Positions 31,290-46,614 of a stretch of 64,000 bases of DNA are shown here, in pieces. The notes beneath the pieces were generated by a model that did no database searches, was not told the DNA's origin, and saw nothing but the letters and a program-made list of their open reading frames with translations. A program made the position numbers and the translations under genes. This DNA comes from Hymenobacter swuensis DY53 (lineage in GTDB: Bacteria > Bacteroidota > Bacteroidia > Cytophagales > Hymenobacteraceae), in the NCBI RefSeq assembly GCF_000576555.1, contig NZ_CP007145.1, positions 1,674,001-1,738,000 on the forward strand, written 5' to 3'. Every line of letters begins with the position of its first letter. The first letter of the stretch is position 1.

Positions 31290-31319
31290 TTGCGCAAATC
31301 CGAACCCGGTGTACATTTG
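31290..31319 (+). promoter_or_regulatory. trp operon promoter
   Basis: TTG at 31290-31292 (part of TTGTTG), exactly 19 bases of spacer, and TACATTTG at 31312-31319. This is an ideal Bacteroidota housekeeping promoter. The transcript should start near 31325, about 30 bases before the trp leader ORF. Confidence 0.85.
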
Positions 31320-31352
31320 CACAGTTCAACGCTCCAAATTCAACTTTCGGCA

Positions 31353-31430
31353 ATGACCCTTTCGATGAACCTGCAAGCATGGTGGTGGCCCTACGGAGAA
31401 TCCGGACGGGACAGCCTGTGCGTGCGTTAA
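31353..31430 (+). CDS. trpL: trp leader peptide
   Basis: 25 codons, ATG at 31353 and TAA at 31428-31430. Codons 10-12 (31380-31388) are three consecutive TGG, read AWWWPYG. The ORF lies between a perfect promoter and a terminator that precedes trpE. This is the classic layout of Trp-sensing ribosome-mediated attenuation: with scarce Trp-tRNA the ribosome stalls at the TGG run and favours an antiterminator. Too short for ordinary gene prediction. No Shine-Dalgarno is obvious, as usual in Bacteroidota. Confidence 0.9.
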   Translation: MTLSMNLQAWWWPYGESGRDSLCVR

Positions 31431-31492
31431 GGTATCGAACTACTTTTTTCGCATCAGCTCAAAAGCCCGGCCGCCAAGCCGGGCTTTTTTTA
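31389..31492 (+). promoter_or_regulatory. trp attenuator
   Basis: The terminator stem pairs 31461-31471 with 31478-31488 (AAAAGCCCGGC and complement, loop CGCCAA), followed by TTTTTTTATTG counting the stem's own Ts. A competing antiterminator can be drawn: CGGACGGG (31403-31410) with CCCGGCCG (31466-31473), seven of eight pairs. A 1:2 hairpin can also form: CCC and CGG (389-391, 394-396 of this kilobase) with CCG and GGG (402-404, 408-410). Region 1 abuts the Trp codons. The terminator is clear; the alternative helices are predictions by eye. Confidence 0.8.
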
Positions 31493-43911: not shown

Positions 43912-43940
43912 TTGCTTATTCCGGAAGTCTTCTATATTTG
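43912..43940 (+). promoter_or_regulatory. Promoter of the first hydroxylase
   Basis: TTG at 43912-43914, 18-base spacer, TATATTTG at 43933-43940. The predicted start of transcription (about 43946) nearly coincides with the leader ORF ATG at 43948. Confidence 0.75.
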
Positions 43941-43947
43941 CATCATC

Positions 43948-44034
43948 ATGCTGAACCTATCCGCGAAATGCTTTATGACCATTAATCGTCCTGTCCAGGA
44001 CGAGGTCGGGCGCTTTTGCGGGTACGAAAGGTAG
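43948..44034 (+). CDS. Putative leader peptide of the first hydroxylase
   Basis: 28 codons ending GRFCGYER and TAG at 44032-44034, directly after a near-perfect promoter and before a terminator that precedes the hydroxylase at 44123. The position and the near-leaderless start match the Tyr leader at 44995, and both peptides end in YER. Unlike that one, it has no run of a single amino acid (Phe at codons 9 and 23, one Tyr at 26). What it senses, if anything, is unclear. An alternative 5-codon frame MLYDH starts at 43968. Confidence 0.5.
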   Translation: MLNLSAKCFMTINRPVQDEVGRFCGYER

Positions 44035-44108
44035 AACACGGCATGCTTCTCCTTCTCTGAAATCCACTTAAGAGCCCGACTCCTCCCCAGGAGCCGGGCT
44101 TTTTTTCT
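43987..44108 (+). promoter_or_regulatory. Attenuator-like element before the first hydroxylase
   Basis: Terminator stem 44073-44084 with 44089-44100 (11 of 12 pairs, loop CCCC) followed by T7. A rival helix pairs GTCGGGC (44005-44011, inside the leader ORF) with GCCCGAC (44074-44080), the left arm of the terminator. Upstream, CGTCCTG/CAGGACG (43987-44002) makes a further hairpin. The layout fits conditional termination coupled to translation of the leader. Confidence 0.65.
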
Positions 44109-44122
44109 GCCCTGTACGCGCT

Positions 44123-44857
44123 ATGATACAGCAACACTACGACCAGTATACCACGCAGGATCAGCTGGTTTGGAAGGTATTATTCGACCGCCAGACGGCT
44201 TTGCTGCACAAGCGCGCCTGCTCGGCCTTTGGCCGGGGGCTGGAGGCCGTGGGCTTCCACCGTAACGCCATTCCCGATTTTCAGGAAGTAAGCCAGCGCC
44301 TGCACAAGGCCACCGGCTGGCAGCTGGAACCGGTGCAGGGCATGCTCAATGATGCCGAGTTCTTCGGGTTGCTGGCCCAGCGCAAGTTCCCGGCCACCGT
44401 CTGGATCCGGAGCATGGCGCAGTTCGACTTCATTGAGGAACCCGACTTGTTCCACGGCGTATTCGGCCACGTGCCGCTGCTCATGGACCAGGCCTTCGCC
44501 GACTTCCTGCACTTCCTGGGACAGGTAGCCGCCCAGCACCTCGACGATGCCGTGGCCCTGGCCCGCCTCGAGCGGCTTTACGGTTTCACGGTGCAGTTCG
44601 GGCTGGTGGAAGAACACGGCCAGACGCGCATGTACGGAGCCGGTCTGCTGTCGTCGTCGGGTGAAATCCACCACTGCATCGGCGACGTTTCGCGCCGCTT
44701 CCCCTTCGACCTGGCCACCGTGCTGCACACGCCCTACAGCGAAGCCCACCTCCAAGACCAGTACTTCGTGCTCACCAGCTGGGACCAGCTCACCGAAAGC
44801 GTAGCCGAGCTGGCCGCACTGCTGTCCTCGGGCTGGGAGCTGCAGCCGGTGGAGTAG
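44123..44857 (+). CDS. Phenylalanine hydroxylase paralogue with Gln at the iron-ligand position
   Basis: 244 residues of the aromatic amino acid hydroxylase fold. The two iron-binding His are present in FHGVFGHVPLL (His111, His116), as are IPDFQEV, RKFPATVWIR and YGAGLLSSSGEIHHCI. The third ligand, a Glu in the WFTxEFGL block of known enzymes, is Gln here: YGFTVQFGLVEE, Gln158, codon CAG. Trp is Gly three positions before the Thr-containing block. The downstream paralogue keeps WFTAEFGL. Iron binding and hydroxylation may therefore be changed or lost. No N-terminal ACT domain, as in bacterial enzymes. Transcribed behind its own leader. Confidence 0.88.
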   Translation: MIQQHYDQYTTQDQLVWKVLFDRQTALLHKRACSAFGRGLEAVGFHRNAIPDFQEVSQRLHKATGWQLEPVQGMLNDAEFFGLLAQRKFPATVWIRSMAQFDFIEEPDLFHGVFGHVPLLMDQAFADFLHFLGQVAAQHLDDAVALARLERLYGFTVQFGLVEEHGQTRMYGAGLLSSSGEIHHCIGDVSRRFPFDLATVLHTPYSEAHLQDQYFVLTSWDQLTESVAELAALLSSGWELQPVE

Positions 44858-44862
44858 CCAAG

Positions 44863-44950
44863 CTGTCATCCTGAGCGGAGCGAAGGACCTTATCACGTCT
44901 GAACGAGTCGTTGGGCGTGATAAGGTCCTTCGCTCCGCTCAGGATGACAG
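44863..44950. repeat. Family-B palindromic repeat between the hydroxylases
   Basis: CTGTCATCCTGAGCGGAGCG to its complement, with AAGGACCTTATCACG and CGTGATAAGGTCCTT inside, giving more than 35 bp of inverted repeat. Same family as 34828-34927. It lies 6 bases after the first hydroxylase stop and may terminate it. Confidence 0.85.
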
Positions 44951-44980
44951 AGTGAAATCTACTTAATCCAAAATCTCTCG

Positions 44981-44988
44981 TACATTTG
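44981..44988 (+). promoter_or_regulatory. -7 box of the second hydroxylase
   Basis: TACATTTG, identical to the trp operon -7 box, 6 bases before the Tyr leader ATG at 44995. The transcript would be almost leaderless. No TTG at the exact -33 distance, where ACTTAATCC is found instead. Confidence 0.7.
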
Positions 44989-44994
44989 CTGCAC

Positions 44995-45084
44995 ATGCTG
45001 CTGTTCACGTCCCGCTATTATTACGCTGCCACCTATTACGCTCCCCTCCGGAGCGGAGCGGCCGCGGCGTACGAGAGGAACTGA
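44995..45084 (+). CDS. Tyrosine-rich leader peptide
   Basis: 29 codons, ATG at 44995 and TGA at 45082-45084. Codons 8-10 are TAT TAT TAC and codons 14-15 TAT TAC, read RYYYAATYYAP; a sixth Tyr is at codon 26. Six Tyr in 29 residues, placed before a terminator and followed by a phenylalanine hydroxylase gene, marks this as a regulatory leader whose translation reports charged tRNA-Tyr. Too short for gene finders and not similar to a structural protein. Confidence 0.88.
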   Translation: MLLFTSRYYYAATYYAPLRSGAAAAYERN

Positions 45085-45158
45085 AACTAGCACTTCACCC
45101 TCCCCAACGTCATTTCAAGCCTGCCTCCGCTCCCTGCGGAGGCAGGCTTTTTCTTTTT
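45039..45158 (+). promoter_or_regulatory. Tyr-responsive transcription attenuator
   Basis: Three mutually exclusive helices can be read directly. 1:2 pairs CGCTCC (45039-45044, starting at the last base of the second Tyr run) with GGAGCG (45050-45055). 2:3 pairs GGAGCGGAG (45050-45058) with CTCCGCTCC (45125-45133), nine perfect pairs. 3:4 is the terminator, 45118-45130 with 45136-45148, thirteen perfect pairs, loop TCCCT, followed by TTTTTCTTTTT. Predicted logic: a ribosome waiting at Tyr codons masks region 1, 2:3 forms and the gene is read; with ample Tyr the terminator forms. Confidence 0.88.
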
Positions 45159-45178
45159 CCACCTTCCCCGTTTTCGTT

Positions 45179-45937
45179 ATGCAGTCTGTTTCTGCCGCTC
45201 CCGTTGCTTCTGTTGCCCTGCCGCTACTCACCCAAGTATATGCCGATTACACCGCCGCCGACCAGCACGTGTGGCAGCTGCTCTTCGACCGCCAGATGGC
45301 CCTGCTGCCCGGCCGCGCCGCTGAGGCGTTTCTGGAAGGCGTGCGGCGGGTGGGCTTCACCCGCGACGCCATTCCCGATTTCCGGGAGGTGAACCCGCGC
45401 CTGCAGGAGTTGACCGGCTGGGAGCTGGTGGTTGTGCCCGGCATTGTGGACGCCGCCGTGTTTTTCCAACTGCTGGCTGACCGCAAGTTTCCCGCCACCA
45501 CTTGGCTGCGCACCCTCGAGCAGCTCGACTACCTCGAGGAGCCCGACATGTTCCACGACGTATTCGGCCACGTGCCGCTGCTGACGGATGCCGGCTTTGC
45601 TGATTTCCTGCAGAAACTGGGCGCGGCCGCCGTGCACCACGGCCAGCGCTGGCCCGGCACGCTGGAGCAGTTCACGCGCCTGTACTGGTTCACGGCCGAG
45701 TTTGGCCTGATTCAGCAGCCCGATGGCCTGCGCATCTACGGGGCCGGGCTGCTGTCGTCGCACGGCGAGGTGAAGTTCAGCCTCAGCGACGCGCCCACCC
45801 GCCTGCCCTTCACCCTCGACGGTGTGCTAGATACGCCCTTCGAGAAGGACAAATTCCAGGACCTCTACTTCGTGCTCACTGACATGCAGCAGCTCCCTGA
45901 GAGCCTAGCCCCGCTCCAGGCACGGCTGTTGGAATAA
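45179..45937 (+). CDS. phhA: Phenylalanine-4-hydroxylase
   Basis: 252 residues. Pterin-dependent, non-haem-iron enzyme converting phenylalanine to tyrosine. The full facial triad is present: His126 and His131 in FHDVFGHVPLL, and Glu174 in WFTAEFGL. IPDFREVNPRL, RKFPATTWLRT and IYGAGLLSSHGEV are further family blocks. Short bacterial form without regulatory ACT domain. About half the positions match the upstream paralogue, so the pair is an old tandem duplication. Controlled by the Tyr attenuator just upstream, which fits a biosynthetic role (making Tyr) rather than Phe breakdown. Confidence 0.94.
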   Translation: MQSVSAAPVASVALPLLTQVYADYTAADQHVWQLLFDRQMALLPGRAAEAFLEGVRRVGFTRDAIPDFREVNPRLQELTGWELVVVPGIVDAAVFFQLLADRKFPATTWLRTLEQLDYLEEPDMFHDVFGHVPLLTDAGFADFLQKLGAAAVHHGQRWPGTLEQFTRLYWFTAEFGLIQQPDGLRIYGAGLLSSHGEVKFSLSDAPTRLPFTLDGVLDTPFEKDKFQDLYFVLTDMQQLPESLAPLQARLLE

Positions 45938-46128: not shown

Positions 46129-46614
46129 TCAATACCGCCAGCCCAGCCGGCGGTAGATAAAATGGAGCAGCCACAGCGGGCCGATGAGCAGAAACTGTAG
46201 GTCTTTGAGGAAGCTGGGCTTCTTGCCTTCTACCTTGTGGCCCCAGAACTGCCCAACCCAGGCCAGCACGAAAATAATCAGGCATACGGCCCACAGGGGC
46301 AGGGCCGCCCCGCCATCTATCACGCGCAGTCCCAGTGCCATAGCCGCCCACACCAGCACCATCCCTACCGCCAGCCGCCCCGAGAGGCGCAGGTAATACC
46401 CTACGGCCAGCACCATTACCACAGTAGCCCAGTTCAGCCAGGGGCAGATGTTCCGCACCGCCGCCGGCACCGGCAACGACCACAGCAACCCCAGAATGGC
46501 GAACATAATCAGCGGTACGCACACCCAGTGCACCAGCTTGTTGGTAGGGTTCTGGTGGCTTTCGGCGTACTCGTTCAGCAGCCGCTGAACCGGAGAAACG
46601 AGGGCAGTAGACAT
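46129..46614 (-). CDS. DUF962 (Mpo1-like) membrane protein
   Basis: 161 residues. ESHQNPTNKLVHWVCVPLIM (about 18-37) is the DUF962/Mpo1 signature, and GQFWGHKVEGKKPSF with GPLWLLHFIY completes it. Four hydrophobic segments. The yeast homologue Mpo1 is an iron-dependent dioxygenase of 2-hydroxy fatty acids; the His residues (His20, His29, His126) fit metal binding, but bacterial function is unproven. A longer overlapping frame (46109-46696) in another phase is a shadow. Confidence 0.85.
   Translation of the reverse strand: MSTALVSPVQRLLNEYAESHQNPTNKLVHWVCVPLIMFAILGLLWSLPVPAAVRNICPWLNWATVVMVLAVGYYLRLSGRLAVGMVLVWAAMALGLRVIDGGAALPLWAVCLIIFVLAWVGQFWGHKVEGKKPSFLKDLQFLLIGPLWLLHFIYRRLGWRY

Follow-up and report, generated by a model that had tools for sequence, protein, structure and literature searches.

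The classical amino-acid attenuators are the trp, his, leu, thr, ilv, pheA and pheST leaders of enterobacteria. T-boxes exert control through tRNA charging by another route, binding the tRNA directly and working without a leader peptide. Attenuation was also reportedly the subject of a comparative survey by Lopatovskaya and colleagues in 2010, listed among the references of PMC4833913. The trp, pheA and pheST attenuators are described in the available excerpts of a paper (PMC11802643) that also presents AroR, the leader of aroF in Corynebacterium glutamicum, which carries a Phe-Tyr-Phe stretch and is reported to respond to Phe limitation, not to Tyr availability. For tyrosine, the available excerpts of a survey of Actinobacteria name T-boxes as RNA control of Tyr genes and refer to Tyr-specific T-boxes of Firmicutes (PMC1262725), and those of a 2005 paper on TyrA mention predicted attenuators before tyrA operons, taken from a public attenuator database (PMC1173090). 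The open-access literature that we searched yielded neither a Tyr-specific leader-peptide attenuator nor an attenuator of a phenylalanine hydroxylase (PAH) gene, in agreement with an earlier sequence-only reading of the present locus that knew of no described Tyr-specific case on a hydroxylase; an earlier prediction in a survey or database is possible.

Here we describe a Tyr-codon leader that precedes a PAH gene (PAH-2) in a 64,000-nucleotide stretch of Hymenobacter DNA, the whole of which we call the window (Table 1). The leader ATG at 44995 lies 6 nt 3' of an TACATTTG box of the Bacteroidota -7 type (consensus TAnnTTTG); given this spacing, the transcript could be wholly or almost leaderless. 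The ORF caller starts the same frame earlier, at an in-frame TTG at 44986. The leader ORF contains a single Phe codon near its start and two runs of Tyr codons, YYY and YY, the last of them the TAC at 45037-45039. Directly after this codon, at 45040, comes the GCTCC arm of the protector hairpin, just as the sequence-only reading had placed the beginning of the 1:2 helix at the last Tyr codon, and in Hymenobacter leaders the protector helix overlaps both the control codons and region 2. Further, GGAGCGGAG (45050-45058) can pair without a mismatch with CTCCGCTCC (45125-45133), a segment that sits in the 5' arm and loop of an intrinsic terminator located between the leader ORF and the structural gene, and this 9-bp antiterminator competes for the terminator 5' arm. 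The terminator hairpin is followed by the T tract TTTTTCTTTTT. Folding of the leader (44989-45160) gives -67.1 kcal/mol, compared with -45.6 (sd 3.8) for shuffles (z -5.7; 0/200). The box, the ORF, the Tyr runs and the three helices claimed earlier are all where that reading had put them, base for base.

Table 1. Features of the Tyr leader, its neighbours and the trpE attenuator, in window coordinates.
Feature	Position	Strand	Details
Trp attenuator before trpE	31312..31492	+	TACATTTG 31312-31319; positive control in window
Trp leader ORF MTLSMNLQAWWWPYGESGRDSLCVR	31353-31430	+	terminator 31461-31492, -19.1 kcal/mol
Type A (Tyr-poor) leader	43933..44106	+	box TATATTTG 43933-43940; separate from Tyr attenuator
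Type A leader ORF MLNLSAKCFMTINRPVQDEVGRFCGYER	43948-44034	+	terminator about 44070-44106
PAH-1 paralogue	44123..44857	+	PF00351; third iron ligand Gln for Glu (TVQFGL)
TACATTTG box	44981..44988	+	Bacteroidota-type -7 promoter box
Tyr leader peptide ORF MLLFTSRYYYAATYYAPLRSGAAAAYERN	44995..45084	+	ATG 44995, 29 codons, TGA stop 45082-45084
Control codons TAT TAT TAC GCT GCC ACC TAT TAC (region 1)	45016..45039	+	
Helix 1:2, outer part	45023..45070 (45023-45027 with 45066-45070)	+	fold and alignment
Protector hairpin GCTCC/GGAGC	45040..45054 (45040-45044 / 45050-45054)	+	immediately after last Tyr codon
Antiterminator 2:3	45050..45133 (45050-45058 with 45125-45133)	+	9 bp
Intrinsic terminator 3:4	45118..45158 (45118-45130 with 45136-45148)	+	13 bp, loop 5, T tract
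Phenylalanine hydroxylase (PAH-2)	45179..45937	+	Biopterin_H PF00351, E 7e-47; HHE triad

We propose that the leader very probably acts by ribosome-mediated transcription attenuation, responding to charged Tyr-tRNA and turning PAH on under Tyr shortage. Transcription would begin at or beside the leader ATG. When Tyr-tRNA is ample, the ribosome would pass the Tyr cluster and reach the stop codon, region 2 would be covered or held by region 1, and regions 3 and 4 would pair and end transcription upstream of PAH. When Tyr-tRNA is scarce, the ribosome would halt on the Tyr cluster and cover the protector hairpin, and the freed region 2 (GGAGCGGAG) would pair with region 3, blocking the terminator and allowing PAH to be made and Phe to be converted to Tyr. 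Promoter use, leader translation, stalling and the direction of the response are what we infer here from the sequence. The sequence-only reading had arrived at the same chain of events, from Tyr shortage through stalling and antitermination to PAH expression, and the conservation of the leader supports this chain, in which charged Tyr-tRNA would be the signal.

The closest relatives of the PAH-2 locus are in Hymenobacter species, with PAH identity up to 98%, and a YYYAATYY or YYAYAYY leader lies upstream in all 19 loci (L003-L020, L074). In an alignment of 26 distinct Hymenobacter orthologue segments, the leader ORF is kept in frame and the cluster comprises five Tyr codons in every leader (26/26). 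Four of these align in all 26 sequences, where they change only between TAT and TAC, and the fifth takes one of two positions, giving YYYAATYY or YYAYAYY. Standard pairs are kept in 99.7% of cells for the terminator, 99.1% for the antiterminator and 97.3% for the protector, compared with 30-64% after the partner has been displaced by 1-3 columns; the tested structure came from one of the 26 aligned sequences, which favours it. Loss of the Tyr run or of the paired arms in homologues, the observation that would speak against the sequence-only reading, was looked for in this alignment, and all 26 leaders retain the Tyr codons and, at the frequencies just given (97.3-99.7% of cells), the pairs.

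Changes that preserve pairing are few within the genus. The protector hairpin is paired in 94.6% of cells and has one double change, C-G to U-A (L011); the outer helix 1:2 is paired in 100% of cells across the 26 sequences, two of its pairs being kept via G-U; and the terminator has A-U replaced by G-C at the stem base in 6/26 sequences, as its one double-changed pair. The antiterminator has no double change among the 26 sequences, and its covariation score is not above that of shuffled letters (295 of 500). The alignment thus supports constancy more than covariation, and we dropped Hymenobacter covariation as proof of pairing because the variation is too small (one terminator pair and one protector pair). 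With so little covariation in the genus, the case for pairing rests on constancy and on a complementarity test across families.

Searches for PAH found a match in 78/296 genomes at the level of the class, 129/192 at that of the order and 81/81 at that of the genus. Upstream DNA of most of these matches was pooled with 80 named loci, yielding 351 PAH ORF hits in 308 loci and 299 distinct upstream regions, for which 250 nt upstream were required and identical last 200 nt were removed (near-identical species remain). Under a strict rule, an ATG ORF of 9-60 codons with at least four Tyr within 10 codons, a Tyr ORF occurs in 76 of these 299 regions from Bacteroidia, whereas the reverse strand yields 1 and each of ten Markov-resampled sets of the same regions 0-4. 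Judged by these counts, the Tyr ORF before PAH is not a product of chance. Other residues at the same threshold of at least four per 10 codons give 71 (Ala), 48 (Leu) and 47 (Arg) versus 76 for Tyr, and the near-equal frequency of Ala in these GC-rich regions weighs against the Tyr reading. At a threshold of at least five per 10 codons, Tyr is the most frequent residue, with 57 of the 299 regions as against 27 for Ala and 10 for Leu.

Tyr ORFs are found in Hymenobacter, Nafulsella, Roseivirga, Fulvivirga, Pontibacter, Cesiribacter and Shiella loci and in further families of the class, examples being L098 (MNFNKQYYYYYQESSRPEKW), L113 and L299. Outside the Tyr cluster, the leader peptides differ among families, and their called length ranges from 13 to 57 residues. 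The leader ATG follows a TAnnTTTG-like box, mostly at 4-8 nt, at 59 Tyr-type sites and at 65 sites of the type A leader (the Tyr-poor leader of a neighbouring paralogue), in a search that allowed box variants and covered 2-14 nt only, and with one doubtful site among the 59 (L306). Tyr leaders with terminators precede PAH in other Cytophagales and in other Bacteroidia families as well, which carries the comparison of homologues beyond the genus with the same outcome. Mixed Tyr/His leaders with terminators (MNPTPRTYVHHSYHFLQ and kin) stand before PAH in L099, L104, L107, L109 and L247, which belong to one related family. The Tyr leader is far from universal: 130 of 290 labelled PAHs lack both types of leader, a Tyr leader with terminator (strict rule) is absent from 108 of 122 order-level PAH genomes, and a genuine Tyr-leader PAH occurs in 23 of 81 Hymenobacter genomes once two spurious cases among 25 (G512 and G527) are removed. 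Flavobacterial long PAHs, represented by 20 pieces (L306-L325), have no Tyr leader, and some of these pieces may stop short of the gene start.

A terminator-like hairpin lies downstream in 83 of 88 Tyr leaders defined by a slightly looser Tyr rule, and a looser-rule leader with a hairpin of -10 kcal/mol or lower no more than 60 nt from the leader stop is present at 79 of the 299 sites, at least one of which is doubtful (L031). We then asked how well the segment between the last Tyr codon and the terminator pairs with the 5' arm and loop of the terminator, using dinucleotide shuffles as a control and leaving out terminators weaker than -10 kcal/mol or more than 60 nt away as well as duplicate segments. 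Of 76 distinct leaders, 55 showed antiterminator complementarity at p<0.05, where about 4 were expected and one row (L168) was on the wrong hairpin, as did 30 of the 48 leaders whose terminator arms lack GCCTGC/GCCTGT. Complementarity fell short of this level in 21/76, being poorest (p 0.19-0.89) in L024, L028, L029, L042, L072, L082 and L299. When folds with the ribosome at the Tyr cluster and at the stop codon were compared, the difference went in the expected direction in 78/78 leaders, which is largely what the larger amount of free RNA would bring about in any case. If the ribosome occupies the last Tyr codon, the mean probability that region 3 pairs upstream is 0.68, as against 0.50 when the segments are shuffled (n=75 leaders; Wilcoxon p 8e-14; singly significant in only 18/75); the leaders in all these tests are related, and their counts and p-values are therefore not independent.

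These results bear on three other explanations. If a T-box, a metabolite riboswitch or a protein-binding leader ran the terminator and the Tyr ORF were incidental, a terminator and antiterminator would be present either way. The 12 hits obtained in 44500-45600 with E up to 10, however, include neither the T-box covariance model, with its conserved antiterminator core and specifier loop, nor any riboswitch family, nor the Rfam Trp, Phe, His, Leu and Thr leader families. Nor does any Rfam match reach its gathering score in the PAH leader loci scanned, which include seven related loci. Tyr codons are, moreover, the feature that the lineages have in common, with only synonymous changes where they could be aligned (Hymenobacter), and we regard an incidental Tyr ORF as highly unlikely.

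A sensor of mixed Tyr/His or general aminoacyl-tRNA signals, or a constitutive brake, would accommodate the lone Phe codon early in the leader of the window and the lineages in which His is mixed into the Tyr cluster (YHYHYYY and TYVHHSYH; Roseivirga loci and one further family), where Tyr specificity does seem less clean. Yet the cluster is without His in Hymenobacter and many others, and Tyr tops all amino acids at the threshold of at least five per 10 codons; we hold such a sensor or brake to be very improbable. Most improbable of the three is a small protein with a function and a terminator of its own, PAH being served by another promoter: the leader ORF is indeed kept in frame within Hymenobacter, but the peptides diverge between families outside the Tyr cluster and range from 13 to 57 residues in called length, and in most leaders the sequence that follows the Tyr codons is complementary to the terminator arm.

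If attenuation is governed by charged Tyr-tRNA, the gene behind the leader would make the sensed amino acid, Tyr, as judged by its family, its solved relatives and its HHE triad. The best solved match of PAH-2 is phenylalanine-4-hydroxylase (E 2e-67), which together with its PF00351 match bears out the identification of the gene as a phenylalanine hydroxylase in the sequence-only reading. At the positions of the iron ligands PAH-2 has two His and a Glu, the residues that bind iron in PAH, and HHE is kept in 78/78 scored Tyr-leader PAHs. Anatomy, conservation, competing pairings and enzyme family can be regarded as established at the level of sequence. Downstream of PAH-2, on the opposite strand, lies a gene for an Mpo1-like (PF06127) protein, 46129-46614 (-).

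Because a TyrA-family gene is present in the window's genome, PAH is not the only possible Tyr route there, and we rejected the idea that it is the sole one. Among 192 order genomes searched, those with PAH comprise 56 in which the match to TyrA is strong, taken as E 1e-25 or better, 39 with a weak match only and 34 with none, and the corresponding numbers for those without PAH are 19, 13 and 31; such co-occurrence led us to reject mutual exclusion of PAH and TyrA. A Tyr leader with terminator (strict rule) is present in 14 of 122 order-level PAH genomes, 7 with a strong TyrA match, the window's genome among them, and 7 with none. TyrA matches in the remaining 108 are strong in 49, weak in 36 and lacking in 23. 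Two Hymenobacter genomes without a TyrA match (G480, G486) carry Tyr-leader PAHs. When 20 TyrA-family loci were scanned for Tyr leaders, Tyr-rich ORFs turned up in L344 alone, itself a weak hit; there were three of them, and we judged none to be leader-like.

Echinicola vietnamensis, one of the Bacteroidetes, belongs to the same order as Hymenobacter. According to the available excerpts of PMC7311316, gene fitness supports a biosynthetic role of its PAH, and the conditions in which PAH is important differ from those in which prephenate dehydrogenase is. A Tyr-starvation switch would fit a back-up or sole route to Tyr and would be difficult to explain if PAH were purely catabolic. The Tyr leader would then be an argument from sequence that these PAHs are biosynthetic rather than catabolic, matching the E. 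vietnamensis fitness results as excerpted (PMC7311316), and could mark organisms whose Tyr supply may hinge on PAH.

Immediately upstream of PAH-2 lies its paralogue PAH-1, which has a box, a leader ORF and a terminator of its own and no Tyr run. When both strands of the 64 kb were scanned for TAnnTTTG with an ATG 3-12 nt on, 4 hits were obtained, two of which are the PAH leaders. Leaders of type A, which look translated and are structured, number 82 sites, none outside Hymenobacter; L091, L198 and L215 are examples. Most alignment gaps in its ORF are multiples of three, a local hairpin (CGTCC/GGACG) has changes on both arms, and in many members GGAGTCGGGC stands opposite GCCCGACTCC of the terminator, with 7 bp in the window. 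Between the two PAH genes is a long, nearly perfect inverted repeat (44862-44951) with weak miRNA-model matches; these Rfam miRNA hits and a HepC_CRE hit at 45033-45179 were dismissed as below gathering scores.

In a PAH tree, the type A PAHs form one group, in which a few unlabelled Hymenobacter sequences are the only others. The ligand positions of this clade are HHQ in 50, HHE in 25 and without either His in 13 (n=88, six rows being assigned to the clade by the tree, not by leader). A Gln ligand is also present in 11 of 124 PAHs with neither leader and is thus not confined to the type A clade. The clade members with altered ligands would appear to be divergent or inactive PAH homologues that still keep a leader of this type. 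Tentatively, the two leaders could be tandem attenuators, one with Tyr codons on a PAH with an intact iron site, the other with no amino-acid run and a non-Tyr signal on a clade that often has Gln or lost ligands, with an enzyme making no Tyr or something other than Tyr; we put this forward as a possibility that is rather doubtful.

A His-rich short ORF (HHHHHGHH, seven His in eight codons) precedes hisG in the same genome (L345, 1024-1152); a scan found no terminator after it, for which reason it was rejected as a second positive control, and only trpE counts. The trpE attenuator in the window has the same design as the Tyr leader, the same TACATTTG box and a GC-rich terminator past the leader stop; by contrast, it has Trp codons, serves the trp operon and has its ATG 33 nt after the box instead of 6. 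In Flavobacterium psychrophilum, the available excerpts of PMC9723704 report strong clues of leader-peptide attenuation before amino-acid operons. Together with the trpE attenuator, these clues suggest that the mechanism is at home in this lineage.

If our proposal is correct, the Tyr leader is a leader-peptide attenuator that answers to tyrosine across several Bacteroidota families and explains control of the PAH route to Tyr in these organisms. With the Tyr-specific T-boxes it would share RNA control of Tyr genes, but T-boxes have no leader peptide. AroR is the nearest known case that we found, by virtue of its Phe-Tyr-Phe stretch: like the Tyr leader it is an attenuator of the aromatic pathway, whereas aroF encodes DAHP synthase and, as far as the available excerpts go, does not respond to Tyr (PMC11802643). 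The Tyr leader shares with the classical attenuators its control codons, protector, antiterminator, terminator with T tract and biosynthetic gene, and it differs from them in its Tyr control codon, its PAH target and an ATG 6 nt past the -7 box. The element is real and present in several families, with an architecture that is known and a Tyr sensor and PAH target that appear new.
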